44,359 nucleotides of DNA, taken from Candidatus Gastranaerophilales bacterium (GTDB lineage Bacteria > Cyanobacteriota > Vampirovibrionia > Gastranaerophilales > Gastranaerophilaceae). Below are positions 6,206 to 14,203 of the stretch, piece by piece (positions within the stretch are counted from its first letter, which is position 1; each line of letters starts with the position of its first letter). Below the pieces are notes generated by a model. That model had not been told where the DNA came from. It made no database searches and saw only the letters and a program-made list of their open reading frames with translations. The position numbers and the translations under genes were made by a program. The stretch lies in contig CALUPU010000013.1 of NCBI GenBank assembly GCA_944322725.1, forward strand, positions 1 through 44,359, given 5' to 3'.

Positions 6206-7564
6206 TTAAATACCCGTATAAAACCTGTTTATTATAGTAACAAAAGAAAACGGAATCAAAATTATTAAGCAAACAATGAGGAATATGTGAAACTTTGTCC
6301 ATACAATTTTTTTGTTGTCAAAGAGCAAAAACAGTAACGGCATCATCGGGATAAAATACCTTCCCTGTACACCGTAAATATAATCGTGAAACTGAAATAA
6401 CACAAAAGCCGAGACAAAAATTACAAGCCCTGTTAGTAAGAATACAAGTGCAAAAATTAATTTGTCTTTGAGTCTTACTGCTTCTTCGGATTCTGTTTTT
6501 ATAAGTGCTGCTGTAAAAATCAAAACCGCATAAAAATTCATCACAAAAAACGGCAACGGCGTGTCATTGCAGCCAAGAAGCCCTATAAAAGCGTAAAAAT
6601 ACGATATGCCGTATGCAAGAAGCGTTTTTAACAAAAGCTTTAAAAACCATCCGAAACGGGTTAAAACAAAAGCCATCATGTATTTTTTGTCATACCCCCC
6701 TACACCTGTGTCCACGCCGTGTCCGAGTACTGCAGCATGGTTGATAAAAAGTGCGGTGATAACAATATTTATTAACGCAGGCAGTAAAAAGCAGGCACAG
6801 CGGGATTTTTGCGAGGAGAATTTTGAGGAAGGAATTATAAAAAATAACAGCAAAAACGGCAAATATGCGTATTTGCAAAGAATCAGCACTGTTGCAAGAG
6901 TCCAGAAAACTGCCATTTCCTTTTTGCCTGCGTGTACAATTGTCCTGTCATAGGCGAGTTTGAGAGTATAAGCAGTGAACAAAAATCCAACCCCCATTGT
7001 CACGGGGTCAACGGTTGCTGACGCGGCTTCGTAAACAGTCATTGGAAGTAAAGCGAGAAAAGTAATCAGCCATTTTTTGAAAGGTATGATTTTTATTGCC
7101 TGATATGCAAGCCCCGTGTACAAAAACAAGGAACACAGCCTTAAAATATAAAGCATAATGAGCGGGGGGATATTGACGAGTTTCATTGCCCACAGAATCA
7201 AAAATGCTGGAAAATAAGAAAACGGTGTGTAACTTGTTGGTGTAAACGCTTTAAAAGAGGTTTTGTCTTTGTTCAGCGGGATTTTTAAAGCTGAAACAAT
7301 TTCCTGAGCGTTTGTGCGTCTTTCCGGATGAAAGCACAGCCTGTCGAATTTGCCTATTTCAATAATGCTGTCAGGGAGAATATCTCCCGCCCTGTTATTC
7401 AAAACCTTAAAATTCAGGGTTTGATTCGTAAACCCCCACATCTTAAAAAAGTGCTGTGCCTCGTCAGGCACCTGAAAAGGCGGATTGAAAAACACAAAGA
7501 ATAATCCGAAAAACAGACATATAAACGCAAATACATTCTGCGGTTTTAAACCTTCTTTATACAT
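6206..7564 (-). CDS. DUF2142 polytopic membrane protein (GT-C-like)
   Basis: A 452-residue membrane protein beginning MYKEGLKPQNVFAF, with NPPFQVPDEAQHFFKMWGF after the first helix and GRYFIPMMPLLF near the C-terminus, both DUF2142 signatures. The start at 7562-7564 is chosen because its ATGTATAA overlaps the stop of the upstream gene by 8 bp, exactly as at the next junction upstream. A start five codons earlier is possible but disrupts that pattern. The first ~27 codons are almost the same as those of the gene at 7557-8963, while the rest has diverged strongly, pointing to tandem duplication plus local gene conversion. Confidence 0.75.
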   Translation of the reverse strand: MYKEGLKPQNVFAFICLFFGLFFVFFNPPFQVPDEAQHFFKMWGFTNQTLNFKVLNNRAGDILPDSIIEIGKFDRLCFHPERRTNAQEIVSALKIPLNKDKTSFKAFTPTSYTPFSYFPAFLILWAMKLVNIPPLIMLYILRLCSLFLYTGLAYQAIKIIPFKKWLITFLALLPMTVYEAASATVDPVTMGVGFLFTAYTLKLAYDRTIVHAGKKEMAVFWTLATVLILCKYAYLPFLLLFFIIPSSKFSSQKSRCACFLLPALINIVITALFINHAAVLGHGVDTGVGGYDKKYMMAFVLTRFGWFLKLLLKTLLAYGISYFYAFIGLLGCNDTPLPFFVMNFYAVLIFTAALIKTESEEAVRLKDKLIFALVFLLTGLVIFVSAFVLFQFHDYIYGVQGRYFIPMMPLLFLLFDNKKIVWTKFHIFLIVCLIILIPFSFVTIINRFYTGI

Positions 7565-8963
7565 AGAACCTGTATACAACCTTTACTACACTAACAAACA
7601 GTACGAAATTTATTAAAAATAAATTGAAATAAAGCAATAAATTATTTTTTGCGAAGAATTTTTTGTTGTCAAAAATCAGAAAAATCAAAGGCGAAGCCGG
7701 AATAAAATACCTGCCGAAAAATCCCGGTATTATACCGCCGTCAGAGATTTGAAAAGCAGCATACAATACAAGAAACAAAAGCAGAGTAAATGCCAGAAAT
7801 ACAGCTATAAATCCTGTTTTTTGTTTTAAATTAAATTCCGCACAACACCTGTCGCCTTCAAAATTGAATAACGAAAAGTTCAAAACAGAAACACAGTATA
7901 ATACAGCACAGTAAAAAGGAACTCTGACTTCACCCCAGCCGAAACTTCCGACAAACCCTTCAAAAGCGGTTTTAAATTTCACAAGAATGGTAAAAACCAT
8001 TGCTTTTACAAAAATTACGGGCTTGTACAAAAGCAGTCCTATAGCAGCATTGCGCATGTAAGTTTCATCCGTGCCCGCACAGGCAATGCTGTTTAAGACA
8101 AACAATATCAGAGTCAGGGCAAAAGCACACATGGCAATATATAAAAATGTCAATATCTGTCTTTTTCTGCTTCCGAATTTTTCAAAAGGAATCAGAAAGT
8201 AAATTAAGAGCAAAGGTGCATAAGCAAATTTGCACAAAATAAAGTACAGACCAACGGCGCAGTATAAAAGAAGCTGTTTTGTTGAAATAGTTTTTACCTC
8301 ATTGCTGAAAGCAAGATACAGTGTCAGTGCAAAAAACAAAAATCCCAGACCTATGGTTAGTCCGTCTGTATTTATGCCTGCTGACTGATACAATGCTGTG
8401 GGAAGCAGACCGAGTGCAAAAAACATCCATTTTTTAACGGGCGTAATTCTTATTGCAGCATAAACCAGTGCTGTGTACGTAATCAAAGAAACCAGCCTCA
8501 AAACATACATTATCCAGCCCGGGTTTATATTTGCGGCTGTCATAATTTTCATCAATACAGCCTGCGGGAGGTACGAAAATACAGTGTAAGACGGTACGGG
8601 AAAAGAGTTGAACACAAGGTGCTCTTTTTCTAAGGGGTAGGAGAGTATTTCTTTTGTTTCTTCAAGATTTGTTTTTTCAAAATCCCTCCATCTTGTGCGG
8701 ATATTTTTGTACCCTGCTTTGTACATTCCCGCAGGCATATACGCGCCTGTCTGTACGTATACTTTGTCTCTTCTTATTCCGTTTACGGTGTCCGAGGTGA
8801 GTTTTTGGTTTCCGGCTTTGCCCTCTGAGACAAGATAAATTTTCCAGAAATGGCAGCATTCATCAGCGCCTGTAAAAGGCGGTGCAAAAAATACAAAGAA
8901 TAATCCGAACAACAAGCATATGAACGCAAATATATTCTGCGGTTTTAAACCTTCTTTATACAT
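7557..8963 (-). CDS. DUF2142 polytopic membrane protein (GT-C-like), divergent motif
   Basis: A 468-residue membrane protein starting MYKEGLKPQNIFAF. The DUF2142 signature is present but altered: APPFTGADECCHFW replaces the usual NPPFQxPDE, keeping the acidic DE pair. GRYFIPASPLIF marks the C-terminal block. It shares length and many blocks (for example TGxYMPAGxYxAGYKN) with the upstream paralogue at 8956-10362, so these two are the closest pair of the array. The start overlaps the upstream stop by 8 bp (ATGTATAA), and its own end reproduces the same overlap with the next gene. Confidence 0.75.
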   Translation of the reverse strand: MYKEGLKPQNIFAFICLLFGLFFVFFAPPFTGADECCHFWKIYLVSEGKAGNQKLTSDTVNGIRRDKVYVQTGAYMPAGMYKAGYKNIRTRWRDFEKTNLEETKEILSYPLEKEHLVFNSFPVPSYTVFSYLPQAVLMKIMTAANINPGWIMYVLRLVSLITYTALVYAAIRITPVKKWMFFALGLLPTALYQSAGINTDGLTIGLGFLFFALTLYLAFSNEVKTISTKQLLLYCAVGLYFILCKFAYAPLLLIYFLIPFEKFGSRKRQILTFLYIAMCAFALTLILFVLNSIACAGTDETYMRNAAIGLLLYKPVIFVKAMVFTILVKFKTAFEGFVGSFGWGEVRVPFYCAVLYCVSVLNFSLFNFEGDRCCAEFNLKQKTGFIAVFLAFTLLLFLVLYAAFQISDGGIIPGFFGRYFIPASPLIFLIFDNKKFFAKNNLLLYFNLFLINFVLFVSVVKVVYRFYV

Positions 8964-10362
8964 AGAATCTGTATACTATCCTTATCACGCTGACTGCTAA
9001 AACAAAATTTATGAGTAGTATTGAAGCAATATTTAAAATATTACAGTATTTGTTATTCAAATAAAATTTGTTATTTAAGAATGCAAAAAATAAAACAGGC
9101 GCTGCGGGTATCAGATATCTTCCGCCAAAATGACCTATCATTCCTTTGTTGTCTATCTGAAAAGCCAGAAAAAGTGCGGCAAAAATCAAAAAATAAACCG
9201 TTATAAAAACAGCCGTAAACAAAAACGGTCTTGTTATATAAACTTTTTTGTCTTTTTCACAGTTAAAAACTGAGTGTATAACAAGCATTAAAATATATAT
9301 AAATACACAGTAAAAAGGCAGCGGAGTGTCATTCCAGCCGAATGTTCCCACAAAACCGTTTATATAAGAACCGAGATTCATCAATGTTGTATATGCTGTT
9401 ATTTGTAAAAAAGCAAAAGGATTGCTGATTAAAAGATTGTATGCAAGGTTTGTTTTAAAAACGGTGTCAGTCAACATACAAACATGAGAGACATATGCCT
9501 TAAACCCTGCGATAATAAAAAAATTGATTAATATCAAACACAAAAAAGTCTTATAGTAATCGGTTTTATTTTTGAATTTGTATTGAGGTATAAGAAAGTA
9601 AATAAATAAAATCGGAAAATAAGGTGCTTTGGAAAACACTATGAAACTCATCAGAAGAAAAAGCAGCGCTTTTTGATTTTTGCCGATTATTTTTATTTTA
9701 TCGTCATAACCAAGGTACATAACATATGCAGCCGAAAGGAATGCACACGCAAAAAGCAGACCGTCAATATTTACGGATACTGTCTGATAAATGCTCATCG
9801 GCATAAGAGCGAGCATAAAAAACAACCATTTTTTAACAGGGGTAATTTTTATTGCCAGATATACAAGAAAACAGTAAACAAACAAAGACGCGCATCGCAT
9901 AAGATAAAGAGAAATACCGGGGTTTACATTGAAGACATTGCAGATTTTCATTACAACTGCCTGAGGAAAGTAAGAAAAAATCGTATAAACAGGCACATTG
10001 TACCCGTTAAAAACCTTTGTATCTTTTTGCAATTTATAATTCAGAATGGTTTTTGTTTCTTCAATACTTGTCTTTTGTTCCGGATTGTTTCTTAAGCGCA
10101 GATTTTTGTAACCCGCAAGATAGATACCGGCAGGCATGTAATCACCCGTACCCGTATAAACTCTGGTAAAAAAGACACCGTCTATGAAATTTGTTGTTAA
10201 CCTTTTAAGATTAAAATGCCCCTGTGATATTGAATAAACTTTCCAGAAGTGGCTGTTTTCATCAGATGCCTGAAAAGGAGGATTTATAAGCATTAATAAT
10301 AAACCCCAGAATAAACATAATATTAAAAACAATTTTTCAGGCTTAATCAAAAATTTATCCAT
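8956..10362 (-). CDS. DUF2142 polytopic membrane protein (GT-C-like), first gene of the array
   Basis: A 468-residue membrane protein with NPPFQASDENSHFWKVY after the first helix and GGRYLIPAAPVLF near the end, both DUF2142 blocks. The ATG at 10360-10362 follows a GGGAG ribosome site. It is the promoter-proximal gene of the six-gene minus-strand operon and diverges from the GT2 glycosyltransferase at 10459 across a 96 bp AT-rich intergenic region that should hold both promoters. Local product: probably a sugar transferase or carrier-linked glycan enzyme of the envelope; acceptor unknown. Confidence 0.75.
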   Translation of the reverse strand: MDKFLIKPEKLFLILCLFWGLLLMLINPPFQASDENSHFWKVYSISQGHFNLKRLTTNFIDGVFFTRVYTGTGDYMPAGIYLAGYKNLRLRNNPEQKTSIEETKTILNYKLQKDTKVFNGYNVPVYTIFSYFPQAVVMKICNVFNVNPGISLYLMRCASLFVYCFLVYLAIKITPVKKWLFFMLALMPMSIYQTVSVNIDGLLFACAFLSAAYVMYLGYDDKIKIIGKNQKALLFLLMSFIVFSKAPYFPILFIYFLIPQYKFKNKTDYYKTFLCLILINFFIIAGFKAYVSHVCMLTDTVFKTNLAYNLLISNPFAFLQITAYTTLMNLGSYINGFVGTFGWNDTPLPFYCVFIYILMLVIHSVFNCEKDKKVYITRPFLFTAVFITVYFLIFAALFLAFQIDNKGMIGHFGGRYLIPAAPVLFFAFLNNKFYLNNKYCNILNIASILLINFVLAVSVIRIVYRFYV

Positions 10363-10458: not shown

Positions 10459-11397
10459 ATGAAAAAAATCAGTCTGGTTTCAAGCTGTTATAATGAAGCA
10501 GAAAATCTCGACCACCTTTATGAAAGGGTAATGACAGCAATAGAACCTTTTTGCGACAGATACGAGTTTGAATATATTCTTCTTGATAACTGTTCCACGG
10601 ACAATACGGAACAAAAATTAAGAGAACTTGCGCGCAAAGACAATCGGGTAAAAGTAATTCTCAATGCAAGAAACTTCGGTCATATACGTTCACCCTACTA
10701 CGGTATGATACAGGCGTCCGGCGATGCTGTTATTTATCTGGCGTCTGATTTGCAAGACCCGCCCGAACTTATAAAAGATTTTATAGAAAAATGGGAGCAG
10801 GGCTACAAAATAGTACTCGGCAAAAAAATAAAGAGTGAAGAATCACCTCTGTTTTTTGCCGTAAGAACAATGTACTATGAACTAATTTCCCGCATAGCAG
10901 ATGATGACACGGGTCTTGTTAAAAACTGCACGGGATTCGGACTATATGACAGACAGGTTATTGATATTATAAAGAGTCTTGATGATCCGTATCCGTATAT
11001 CAGAGGGCTTATTTGCGATATAGGTTTTGAAAAAGCTTTTGTGGAATTTATCCAGCCTCTTCGAAAACGCGGTCTGACAAAGAATAATTTTTATACATTA
11101 TATGACAATGCAATGGTAGGTATTGTAAAACACTCCAAAGTTCCATTAAGACTCATGACATTCTTAGGGTTCGGGTTTTCGTTTTTGAGTCTGCTTGTGG
11201 CAATATTGTATTTTATTTTGAAACTGGTTTTCTGGGAAGAGTTTACTCTCGGTATGGCGCCGATTATCATAAGTATCTTTTTCCTTGCTTCCGTACAGCT
11301 TTTCTGTATGGGAGTACTGGGTGAATACATAGGCGCGATTTACACCCGTGTGAACAAAAAACCCGTTGTTGTTGAAAAAGAAAGAATAAATTTTTAA
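10459..11397 (+). CDS. GT2 family glycosyltransferase, polyprenyl-phosphate sugar synthase type (GtrB/ArnC/DPM1-like)
   Basis: A 312-residue protein with an N-terminal GT-A domain (ISLVSSCYNEAENL, then YLASDLQDPPELI, the metal and nucleotide-sugar DxD-like region) and two C-terminal membrane helices (about residues 230-250 and 265-290). This is the architecture of enzymes that move a sugar from a nucleotide donor to undecaprenyl phosphate. A GGGGGTGAC ribosome site precedes the ATG, and a TATAAT at 10427-10432 is a plausible -10 element, although the matching -35 is poor. Divergent to the GT-C array, which could use its product on the outer face. It leads the operon GT2-ldpA-tilS-hpt with 3 bp to the next gene. 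Confidence 0.85.
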   Translation: MKKISLVSSCYNEAENLDHLYERVMTAIEPFCDRYEFEYILLDNCSTDNTEQKLRELARKDNRVKVILNARNFGHIRSPYYGMIQASGDAVIYLASDLQDPPELIKDFIEKWEQGYKIVLGKKIKSEESPLFFAVRTMYYELISRIADDDTGLVKNCTGFGLYDRQVIDIIKSLDDPYPYIRGLICDIGFEKAFVEFIQPLRKRGLTKNNFYTLYDNAMVGIVKHSKVPLRLMTFLGFGFSFLSLLVAILYFILKLVFWEEFTLGMAPIIISIFFLASVQLFCMGVLGEYIGAIYTRVNKKPVVVEKERINF

Positions 11398-11400
11398 CAC

Positions 11401-12321
11401 ATGAAACACAAACTTTTTGAAAAACTCGATAATCAAAAAATTTTCAAGCTTGTGCTCGGGCTTGGCAATCAGAATTTTGAAGAAATAGAGCACCTCACGC
11501 ATATCTATGCTGCAGCGGGTGCGGATATGTTTGATATAAATCCTTCAAAAGAAGCAGTTGAGGCTGTTTTTCGGGGTGTAAAAAAAGCCGGTAAAAATAT
11601 TGAGGACTTCCTGTACTCAATCAGCACAGGCATGGAGGGTGATACGCATATTCAAAAATGCTCTATAAATCCTGACAAATGCAAACGCTGCGGCAAATGT
11701 ATAAAAAAATGCCCGAGACAGGCGATTGTATGGGAGGATAAGTATCCCAAAGTTATTGCACAAAACTGTATCGGCTGCAAAAAATGCGATGACTGCAAGG
11801 CAATAAGTTTTGGAGATGTGAAAACAAACATTGAAAATATTGTAAAAATTGCTCAAGATTACAACCTTGATTGTGTGGAACTTCACCTTTCCACAAAAAA
11901 AATTCCCGACAAAGAAATAAAATATATTATTAACAACTTTGACGGCGTATTGAGCCTGTGTCTTGACAGGAAACACTATTCCAACGAACGCATAAAAAAA
12001 CTTTTGACAAAGGTTACAAAATGGAATAACGGCACGGATTTTATTGTACAGGCAGATGGTGTTCCCATATCGGGCGGGGATAATACGTACAATTCCACCC
12101 TGCAAGCCGTTGCAATGGCGCATATTGTGCAGGATTTTGGGACTTACATTCTGATATCGGGCGGTACAAATGAAAAAACCGCACAGCTGGCTAAAATGTG
12201 TTGTCTAAGATATAATGGGATAAGCGTAGGCTCATACGCCAGAAAAATCGTGAAAGACAGGGATTTTGACGATGCCGTTGTTGAGGCTCGCAGACTTATA
12301 GAAGCTTGCAGAAATGATTAA
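11401..12321 (+). CDS. ldpA: LdpA-like [4Fe-4S] protein (cyanobacterial light-dependent period A family)
   Basis: A 306-residue protein. Two ferredoxin-type cysteine clusters are visible: C94-x2-C97-x2-C100-x3-C104-P, and C123-x2-C126-x2-C129-x2-C132. The C-terminal half carries VQADGVPISGGDNTYNST, LISGGTNEKTAQLAK and GISVGSYARKIV, which I recognise as the LdpA C-terminal block (recalled, not searched). In Synechococcus LdpA is a redox-sensing iron-sulfur protein that adjusts circadian period and associates with clock-input proteins. No clock or photosystem gene is present here, so the function in this organism is unknown. It sits 3 bp after the GT2 gene without an SD, and its end overlaps tilS by 8 bp. 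Confidence 0.75.
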   Translation: MKHKLFEKLDNQKIFKLVLGLGNQNFEEIEHLTHIYAAAGADMFDINPSKEAVEAVFRGVKKAGKNIEDFLYSISTGMEGDTHIQKCSINPDKCKRCGKCIKKCPRQAIVWEDKYPKVIAQNCIGCKKCDDCKAISFGDVKTNIENIVKIAQDYNLDCVELHLSTKKIPDKEIKYIINNFDGVLSLCLDRKHYSNERIKKLLTKVTKWNNGTDFIVQADGVPISGGDNTYNSTLQAVAMAHIVQDFGTYILISGGTNEKTAQLAKMCCLRYNGISVGSYARKIVKDRDFDDAVVEARRLIEACRND

Positions 12322-13663
12322 CAGGGTAAAAGGTTTTTTAAAAAAATATGATTTGTTGAGTCCTGAAAAAACACTCGTTGTGGGGTTTTCAGGCGGATAT
12401 GACTCTATGTGCCTGCTTGATATTCTAAGAAGAATCAGGGAAAAAACACCTTTCCGCCTTATTGCACTGCACCTCAACCATAACTGGCGTGCAAGGGAAT
12501 CGGAAATAGAGCAGGAAAACTGCGAAAACTACTGCAAACAAAATAATATAGAGATTTATACTGAAATCCTGGATAAAAATACACCGAAAACCGAAACCGC
12601 TGCCAGAGAAAAACGTCAGGAATTTTTCAAAAAGTATTACAAAAAATTTAATGCTGACGGGTTGTTTCTTGCACACACAAAGTCCGATAATACAGAAACA
12701 ATTCTCTACAGACTGTCTAAAGGTACGGGTGTAAAGGGTTTGTGCGGTATTCTGGAGAGTTCTTCGCTTGATTTTTGCAATGTGTTCAGACCCTTAATGC
12801 CTTTTGCAAGAAAAGACATAATGCGCTACTGCACTGTTAACAAACTTGTACCAAACAACGATTCCAGCAATTTTGATACAAAGTATGCACGTAATTTTCT
12901 ACGCCATCAGATAATTTCGGAACTCAAAACAATTAACCCGAAGATTGATGATGTTTTTTTGAATCTTTCAAAAATTGCACTCTCCGAGCAGAACATAATT
13001 AAAGAGTATCTTTCTAAAATCAGGCAGGAGATACAAAAAGACGGATACATTGTCACCTCTGAATTTGTAAAACTGTCAAAAGATGTTCAAAATAAGTTTA
13101 TACTCGATTTTCTTGTTGAAAAAAATCTTGAATATGATTCCAAAAAGATAGAAGAAATCTATGATTTTATAAATAAAAGCGTGCGTTTTAAATCAGGTAA
13201 AACCCTTTCTTTGACAAAGGATTTGTGGCTGTTTGTTTCTGCTGAAAAAATGTGTACCATAGATGACCTTGAACCTGAAAAAATTACGGACGAAATAAAA
13301 ATTGATAAATGCGGGTCTTACGAGTTTCATGACAGGATGGTCAGGATTGAAAAATATACGGCTGCGGATGTAAAAGATTATCCTCGTTCCACGGAAATGA
13401 AGGCATACGTTTCAATGCCTGAGGATTTTAAACTGACACTGCGCACCCGCCTGCACGGAGATGTTATCCAGCCTTTCGGCATGCAGGGAACAATGAAGCT
13501 TAAAAAACTTTTTATAAATAAAGGCATAGAAAAGTTCAAAAGAGATGATATTATACTCTTATGTAAAGGTAATGAGGTGCTCTGGGCATCAGGTGTCTGC
13601 CTGAATGAAAAACTCAGGGCAAAAACGCTTCCCACTCACGTTATAAAAATAGAAAACAGGTAA
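12314..13663 (+). CDS. tilS: tRNA(Ile)-lysidine synthase TilS
   Basis: A 449-residue protein whose N-terminal PP-loop ATPase motif SGGYDS (residues 26-31) is typical of TilS, which converts C34 of the CAU-anticodon tRNA-Ile to lysidine so that it reads AUA. LHLNHNWR, LAHTKSDNTETILYRLSKGTG and YARNFLRHQI are further TilS blocks. The C-terminal segment with LRTRLHGDVIQPFGMQGTMK matches the TilS C-terminal substrate-binding domain. The start overlaps ldpA by 8 bp. hpt follows after 3 bp, a tilS-hpt pairing that is widespread in bacteria; the usual next partner ftsH is absent here. Confidence 0.95.
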   Translation: MINRVKGFLKKYDLLSPEKTLVVGFSGGYDSMCLLDILRRIREKTPFRLIALHLNHNWRARESEIEQENCENYCKQNNIEIYTEILDKNTPKTETAAREKRQEFFKKYYKKFNADGLFLAHTKSDNTETILYRLSKGTGVKGLCGILESSSLDFCNVFRPLMPFARKDIMRYCTVNKLVPNNDSSNFDTKYARNFLRHQIISELKTINPKIDDVFLNLSKIALSEQNIIKEYLSKIRQEIQKDGYIVTSEFVKLSKDVQNKFILDFLVEKNLEYDSKKIEEIYDFINKSVRFKSGKTLSLTKDLWLFVSAEKMCTIDDLEPEKITDEIKIDKCGSYEFHDRMVRIEKYTAADVKDYPRSTEMKAYVSMPEDFKLTLRTRLHGDVIQPFGMQGTMKLKKLFINKGIEKFKRDDIILLCKGNEVLWASGVCLNEKLRAKTLPTHVIKIENR

Positions 13664-13666
13664 ATT

Positions 13667-14203
13667 ATGCTCGATAAAAAAGTTGAAGATTTAAAAATTT
13701 TATTTTCTGAAGAAGAAATCGAAAAAAGAACACGGGAACTTGCACAGGAGATAAATTCGGATTTTGGCGAAAAAGAAGATTTAACCTTGATTTGTATTTT
13801 AAAAGGCTCAAGTATATTCTGCTGTGATTTGTGCAAACATCTTAAAATGCCTGTTCAGATGGAGTTTATAAGAGTGTCAAGCTACGGCAATGCACAGGTT
13901 TCGTCAGGTCATGTTCAGGCACTGGATTTGACTCTGCCGAATCTTGAAGGGAGAAATGCACTCATAGTAGAAGATATTATTGATACAGGCTGTACAATGA
14001 AATTTTTAACCGAAATTCTTTGCAGAACTCACAAACTCAAAAATCTCAAAGTTGTAACTCTTTTAAACAAAAAAATTGCACGAAAAGCAGACATTGAGCC
14101 TGATTATTACGGCTTTGAAGTGGATGACAAATTTGTTGTGGGCTACGGGCTTGATTACGAAGGATATTTTCGCAATCTCCCTTATGTCGGCTATTTTGAA
14201 TAA
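13667..14203 (+). CDS. hpt: Hypoxanthine phosphoribosyltransferase
   Basis: A 178-residue type I phosphoribosyltransferase. The PRPP-binding motif VEDIIDTG is at residues 101-108, with ILKGSSIFCCDL and MEFIRVSSYGN upstream and YYGFEVDDKFVVGYGLDYE downstream, all diagnostic of HPRT. It salvages hypoxanthine (and usually guanine) to the nucleotide using PRPP. Length is normal for the family (about 175-185). It is the last gene of the GT2-ldpA-tilS-hpt operon and converges on the acyltransferase gene across 42 bp. Confidence 0.95.
   Translation: MLDKKVEDLKILFSEEEIEKRTRELAQEINSDFGEKEDLTLICILKGSSIFCCDLCKHLKMPVQMEFIRVSSYGNAQVSSGHVQALDLTLPNLEGRNALIVEDIIDTGCTMKFLTEILCRTHKLKNLKVVTLLNKKIARKADIEPDYYGFEVDDKFVVGYGLDYEGYFRNLPYVGYFE

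Follow-up and report, generated by a model that had tools for sequence, protein, structure and literature searches.

An LdpA-family protein from a clockless relative of the Cyanobacteria: a predicted barrel with an inserted ferredoxin that may be a redox-linked enzyme

A survey of 11,264 genomes reported LdpA, described as a clock input, from Cyanobacteria only (PMC5520375). According to a 2026 review, oxidised LdpA leads to a higher abundance of CikA by a mechanism given there as unknown, and the protein is treated as a redox sensor, not an enzyme (PMC13421787). Melainabacteria have been found to possess RpaA, RpaB and NblS without SasA (PMC3787301, PMC4040986). No mention of LdpA together with Melainabacteria, or together with a TIM barrel, was found in the open-access literature searched. 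With the family members considered here, LdpA would join RpaA, RpaB and NblS as clock-associated proteins of clockless relatives.

The window, that is, the whole stretch of 44,359 nucleotides analysed in this study, is contig 13 of a Gastranaerophilales-type genome (1.91 Mb). Searches of this genome found no PsaA or PsaB, no KaiB domain (the same search covers the KaiB domain of the SasA type) and no KaiC, the only KaiC-family matches above the cut-off being RadA and RecA. PsaA/B were likewise absent from 30 genomes expected to be non-photosynthetic, this one included, and present in six photosynthetic controls. The absence of a Kai clock is well supported by the KaiB and KaiC searches in an assembly that is 95.6% complete. 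A first-pass annotation of this DNA had called the host non-photosynthetic and seen no clock gene in the DNA, and both statements hold, with no kai cluster found elsewhere in the genome. Its term “circadian-input protein” is not supported, because there is no Kai clock for the protein to feed. The 306-residue reading frame does carry the Cys groups C94/C97/C100/C104 and C123/C126/C129/C132 and the GVPISGG and SGGTNEKT blocks that had been read from it, and the operon runs as claimed, from the GT2 gene through ldpA and tilS to hpt (Table 1). The three DUF2142 genes beside this operon stand in tandem and are homologous to one another. A separate copy of Ycf23 is encoded at C1:60089-60808.

Table 1. 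Features of the ldpA locus in the window
Feature	Positions	Strand	Basis
ldpA-like gene, type b	11401..12321	+	ORF with ATG start, 306 aa; LdpA_C and NCBIfam LdpA matches; AlphaFold model
Ferredoxin insert between strands 3 and 4, residues ~85-139	11653..11817	+	Model DSSP; gap against Ycf23 profile; Fer4
Strand 6 motif Q217-A-D219-G220-V-P-I-S-G225	12049..12075	+	Q, D, G and G invariant in 57 sequences
Strand 7/8 phosphate-binding-type motifs S-G254-G255-T-N..T and GISV-G277-S	12157..12234	+	G254, G255 and G277 invariant
GT2 glycosyltransferase	10459..11397	+	Pfam Glycos_transf_2; NCBIfam PgfS-like, 190 bits; 3 bp upstream of ldpA
tilS	12314..13663	+	Pfam/NCBIfam TilS; 8-bp overlap with ldpA
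hpt, hypoxanthine phosphoribosyltransferase	13667..14203	+	TIGR01203, 195 bits, above cut-off; 3 bp after tilS
Three DUF2142 membrane proteins	6206..10362	-	Pfam PF09913, 156-185 bits each; divergent from ldpA operon

Membership of the window protein in the LdpA family in a broad sense is well supported. Pfam LdpA_C matches with 38 bits (cut-off 22.2; E 1.7e-9), and the top NCBIfam match is CircClkLdpA (NF045992), aligned over residues 6-284 with 80 bits, well short of the equivalog cut-off of 450 bits. Fer4 is above its cut-off and all eight ferredoxin Cys are present; the LdpA Fe-S-binding domain PF25160 scores 12.1 bits against a cut-off of 27.6. A different Fe-S family was considered and set aside, as the best NCBIfam match is LdpA and the remaining matches span the ferredoxin part only. 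DUF561 (PF04481), the Ycf23 domain, reaches 19.9 of the required 21.6 bits, over the N-terminal 56 residues only, and profile comparison points to a relative of Ycf23, not a member of that family. Hence the earlier identification as LdpA stands for the broad family, with its LdpA_C score and full-length NF045992 alignment, but not for the equivalog, the clock LdpA in the strict sense: the NF045992 score, the PF25160 score, the grouping in trees (see below) and the lack of Kai genes all speak against the latter.

A search with LdpA_C matched 377 of the 386 genomes sampled from the phylum. Of the 14 control genomes through which the search reached beyond the phylum, Synechococcus elongatus alone gave a match. 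Of the same 386 genomes, 189 gave a KaiB match; apart from a few weak or unusual cases, these are in essence the photosynthetic members. G096 and G013, which lie outside that group and lack photosystem I, gave KaiB-like matches (E 7e-12 and 4e-13). Nearly all sampled genomes of the phylum have the LdpA family, including non-photosynthetic ones without KaiB, so it is not bound to the clock. The first-pass interpretation is in part borne out. What the window protein shares with clock LdpA is an enzyme-like barrel with an Fe-S domain and not a demonstrated redox signalling role. Ycf23 is present in most sampled phylum genomes. A single-protein search for LdpA (E 1e-5) gave no match in 18 of 77 genomes of the class, mostly in families f43 and f45, and a profile search of the 16 genomes of these two families found ferredoxin-type fragments only; Ycf23 was likewise absent from them, which suggests a joint loss of LdpA and Ycf23 in these larger-genome members of the class. 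A strict co-occurrence of the two proteins does not hold, for f43 and f45 lack both, yet other genomes have just one. LdpA apparently fused into ORFs of 1800-2000 aa in two cyanobacterial genomes proved to be an artefact of N-masked sequence.

In a tree of 96 LdpA rows, to be read with caution as the LdpA trees have long branches and uneven composition, the family splits with full support (100/100) into two subfamilies. Type a comprises the photosynthetic genomes (one clade, 100/99), most basal families and the class families f4, f5, f6 and f44; type b comprises Gastranaerophilales (f1-f3, with the window protein), the basal family f20 and genus g106 of the photosynthetic family f32. Removing the ferredoxin and the long branches left the split at 100/100 and the f32 type-b genes in one clade (98/97). 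Monophyly of LdpA within the class, with Gastranaerophilales joined to the rest, was rejected (AU p 1.5e-6), as was a grouping of the g106 genes with cyanobacterial LdpA (AU p 0.0014). It is thus very improbable that the gene is an ordinary, vertically inherited LdpA orthologue that merely diverged in a host-associated lineage: the presence of one LdpA-family gene per genome over nearly the whole phylum would fit such a history, but the robust split, the rejected class monophyly and the occurrence of type b in photosynthetic genomes, apart from their relatives' LdpA, do not. As judged from these trees, the window protein belongs to a second subfamily and does not correspond by vertical descent to cyanobacterial LdpA; the suggestion that it descends directly from a pre-clock LdpA fails on the same two grounds, the 100/100 separation from the cyanobacterial half and the rejected grouping of its order with the rest of the class.

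In photosynthetic genomes, type b probably takes the place of the native LdpA. Canonical LdpA was found in none of the seven f32 genomes with type b and in 101 of 114 others of this family (Fisher 1.2e-6), where the seven represent one clade of related type-b genes and not seven independent events, and four of them are incomplete; a single clade of carriers points to one or few events. Two carriers, G165 and G223, are at least 99% complete and have KaiB and PsaA/B, and profile searches likewise found no canonical LdpA in them. One of the f32 type-b proteins, P0002, shares 33% identity with the window protein. In the small photosynthetic genomes, where type b occurs patchily, the DNA around type-b ldpA (L202 in G165, L203 in G223, L227 and L228) is variable and AT-rich and contains sugar genes; two of these genomes have a further LdpA-like gene, of 283-289 aa and without a ferredoxin, after it.

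The AlphaFold model of the window protein is a TIM barrel (pLDDT 94.1, pTM 0.91; 57-row alignment) with strands at residues 14-18, 43-46, 71-77, 158-162, 183-189, 215-219, 249-253 and 273-276 (DSSP). A model of canonical cyanobacterial LdpA (pLDDT 88.4) has the same strand order and the same insert, and the predicted fold, a barrel with a ferredoxin after strand 3, is well supported. The top structural matches are phosphate-binding barrels, namely KGPDC, HPS, RPE and TrpA (Z 16-18 and rmsd near 3 across some 200 residues). An FMN enzyme could be imagined by analogy to the PreA and DHOD barrels, but is not favoured, the best fold matches being sugar-phosphate barrels. In a comparison of profiles, LdpA and Ycf23/DUF561 align over 229 columns (hhalign probability 99.1, E 1e-18), with the ferredoxin as a large gap, and the strand 7/8 motifs of the window protein align with ASG..T and GVGVGS of Ycf23. 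Invariant in 57 LdpA sequences are K16, A39, D45, S75, H83, C94, C100, C104, C123, G125, C126, C129, E160, H162, Q217, D219, G220, G225, G254, G255, G277 and A296. Most of the non-Cys positions lie in or just past the strand ends, as placed by the DSSP string and not by atomic coordinates, and the polar set K16, D45, S75, H83, E160, H162, Q217 and D219 resembles, in the model, a predicted active site.

The two types have different gene neighbours. In 15 of the type-a loci read, from photosynthetic and non-photosynthetic genomes alike, a SpoIIIAA/Ycf45-type ATPase gene follows ldpA within at most two genes; none was present in the type-b loci read. In L134-L140 and L145-L152, ldpA adjoins such an ATPase (with PTPase and R3H domains), and some of these loci have an Orn/Lys/Arg decarboxylase gene or ndhN upstream. 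Several type-b loci of Gastranaerophilales and f32 have genes for a HAD phosphatase, an HMGL-like aldolase and an HpcH/HpaI aldolase nearby, and some a TPP enzyme, the Kdo-cytidylyltransferase KdsB (265 bits, above cut-off) or a GT2; the HAD phosphatase and the HMGL aldolase were each seen at seven distinct loci. Homologues of the window GT2 (cluster k6) lie within the type-b cassette of two other genomes. One might therefore take type b for a dedicated step toward a Kdo-like sugar acid of a surface glycan, tied to LdpA proper by ancestry only. Such a role would fit the recurrence of these genes in two distant lineages, the island-like, variable gene content of the f32 site and the GT2 and DUF2142 genes that adjoin ldpA in the window. 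We nevertheless think it improbable, as many Gastranaerophilales loci are without the cassette: the window clade has GT2 or other genes upstream of ldpA and tilS-hpt downstream, the latter recurring in two further genera, and a beta-lactamase-like neighbour is found elsewhere. Moreover, types a and b were never found together in f32, which suggests a common role.

Our best reading, which we regard as having about an even chance of being right, is a redox-linked barrel enzyme acting on a phosphorylated metabolite, with clock input as a later use. An enzymatic role of this kind accounts most economically for the invariant pocket, the link to Ycf23 and the gene neighbours, and we place it, together with the catalysis, the ligand and the secondary clock use that it entails, midway between doubt and acceptance. 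The mechanism would be as follows: an old, phylum-wide family would combine a phosphate-binding-type barrel, homologous to Ycf23, with a ferredoxin inserted after strand 3, at the barrel end that houses active sites; the glycine motifs of strands 7 and 8 would bind a phosphorylated metabolite, on which the conserved K/D/S/H/E/H/Q/D residues would act; electrons would pass to or from the metabolite via the Fe-S clusters; and the clock input of cyanobacterial LdpA would be a secondary use of the same protein. The ligand could be a phosphorylated sugar or a related acid, because of the fold and the gene neighbours, and the clock role is probably later, because the family looks like an old sugar-phosphate-type barrel with a built-in iron-sulphur wire. 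Against an enzyme, one can point out that a pure sensor, too, could use an invariant set of polar residues to bind a ligand, that a barrel fold of the phosphate-binding kind is not proof of catalysis, and that in the window ldpA has GT2, tilS and hpt as neighbours instead of the HAD/aldolase cassette.

The ferredoxin itself bears on this question. In the 2[4Fe-4S] ferredoxin fold, each cluster is bound by three Cys of one motif and the last Cys of the other. The two four-Cys motifs of the window protein do not correspond to two clusters one to one; presumably C104/C123/C126/C129 bind one cluster and C94/C97/C100/C132 the other. C104, C123, C126 and C129 are invariant in 57 sequences, C97 and C132 are variable, and this fits cross-motif pairing. 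The window clade has a second motif, CxxCxxCxxC-K, with one residue fewer than that of its relatives (CxxCxxCxxxC); this form occurs in all sampled species of the clade and in no other alignment row. First-motif spacing varies with lineage: Cx3Cx3Cx3CP in photosynthetic type-a rows, Cx3Cx2Cx3CP in f7 and f16, and CxxCxxCxxxCP in most others. In the basal family f9 (L069, L070, L072, L075 and L076), the first motif has three Cys, Cx5Cx3CP, and one cluster may be [3Fe-4S] or missing there, because only three ligands are available in this motif.

Strong lineage variation in the ligand spacing of cluster I would be expected if its potential were tuned, and the main rival to the enzyme is a pure redox sensor, whose clusters would report redox state while the barrel binds a partner such as RpaA, RpaB or NblS, in the manner of LdpA in the Synechococcus CikA pathway. 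This is consistent with what has been published on the phenotype of LdpA and on redox sensing by its [4Fe-4S] clusters (PMC13421787, PMC12000584), and with reports of RpaA, RpaB and NblS in Gastranaerophilales without SasA (PMC3787301, PMC4040986). We still consider a sensor rather unlikely, because invariance extends far beyond the Cys to a full polar set at the strand ends, the Ycf23 homologue keeps most of the same residues yet has no clusters, and the type-b loci read show a link with sugar-acid genes and none with signalling genes.

The redox-linked enzyme can be extended, tentatively and with more doubt than conviction, to a wider picture in which LdpA would serve the whole phylum as a core enzyme, built as a Ycf23-type barrel that carries a ferredoxin of its own, and clock input would be a by-product of its metabolic redox work. 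Type b would be an isozyme that moves horizontally, at times together with sugar-acid genes, and it would have replaced the native LdpA in some photosynthetic lineages with Kai proteins. If such displacement is true, these Kai-bearing carriers offer a natural experiment that could show which of the two the clock requires, LdpA itself or only its metabolic activity. An LdpA family in clockless, non-photosynthetic relatives, with an enzyme-like barrel homologous to Ycf23, gives testable ideas of what chemistry LdpA performs and of how clock input could arise from metabolism.

Among known systems, cyanobacterial LdpA (S. elongatus and others; NF045992, PF12617, PF25160) is homologous to the window protein over its full length, with 25% identity to the canonical protein, and shares the barrel-with-ferredoxin order, the eight ferredoxin Cys and the invariant barrel residues. 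It differs from the window protein in the first Cys motif (Cx3Cx3Cx3CP instead of CxxCxxCxxxCP), in its longer second motif, in its equivalog and PF25160 scores and in its subfamily, and the window protein has a host in which no Kai genes were found. With the ribulose-phosphate-binding barrels (KGPDC, HPS, RPE and TrpA), which have no Fe-S insert, the likeness is at the level of the fold, at 10-17% identity. Ycf23/DUF561 (PF04481), a distinct family without the ferredoxin insert, is homologous to LdpA over the whole barrel, and the two have the K, D, S and E residues, the Q-x-D/E-G motif and the glycine motifs in common.
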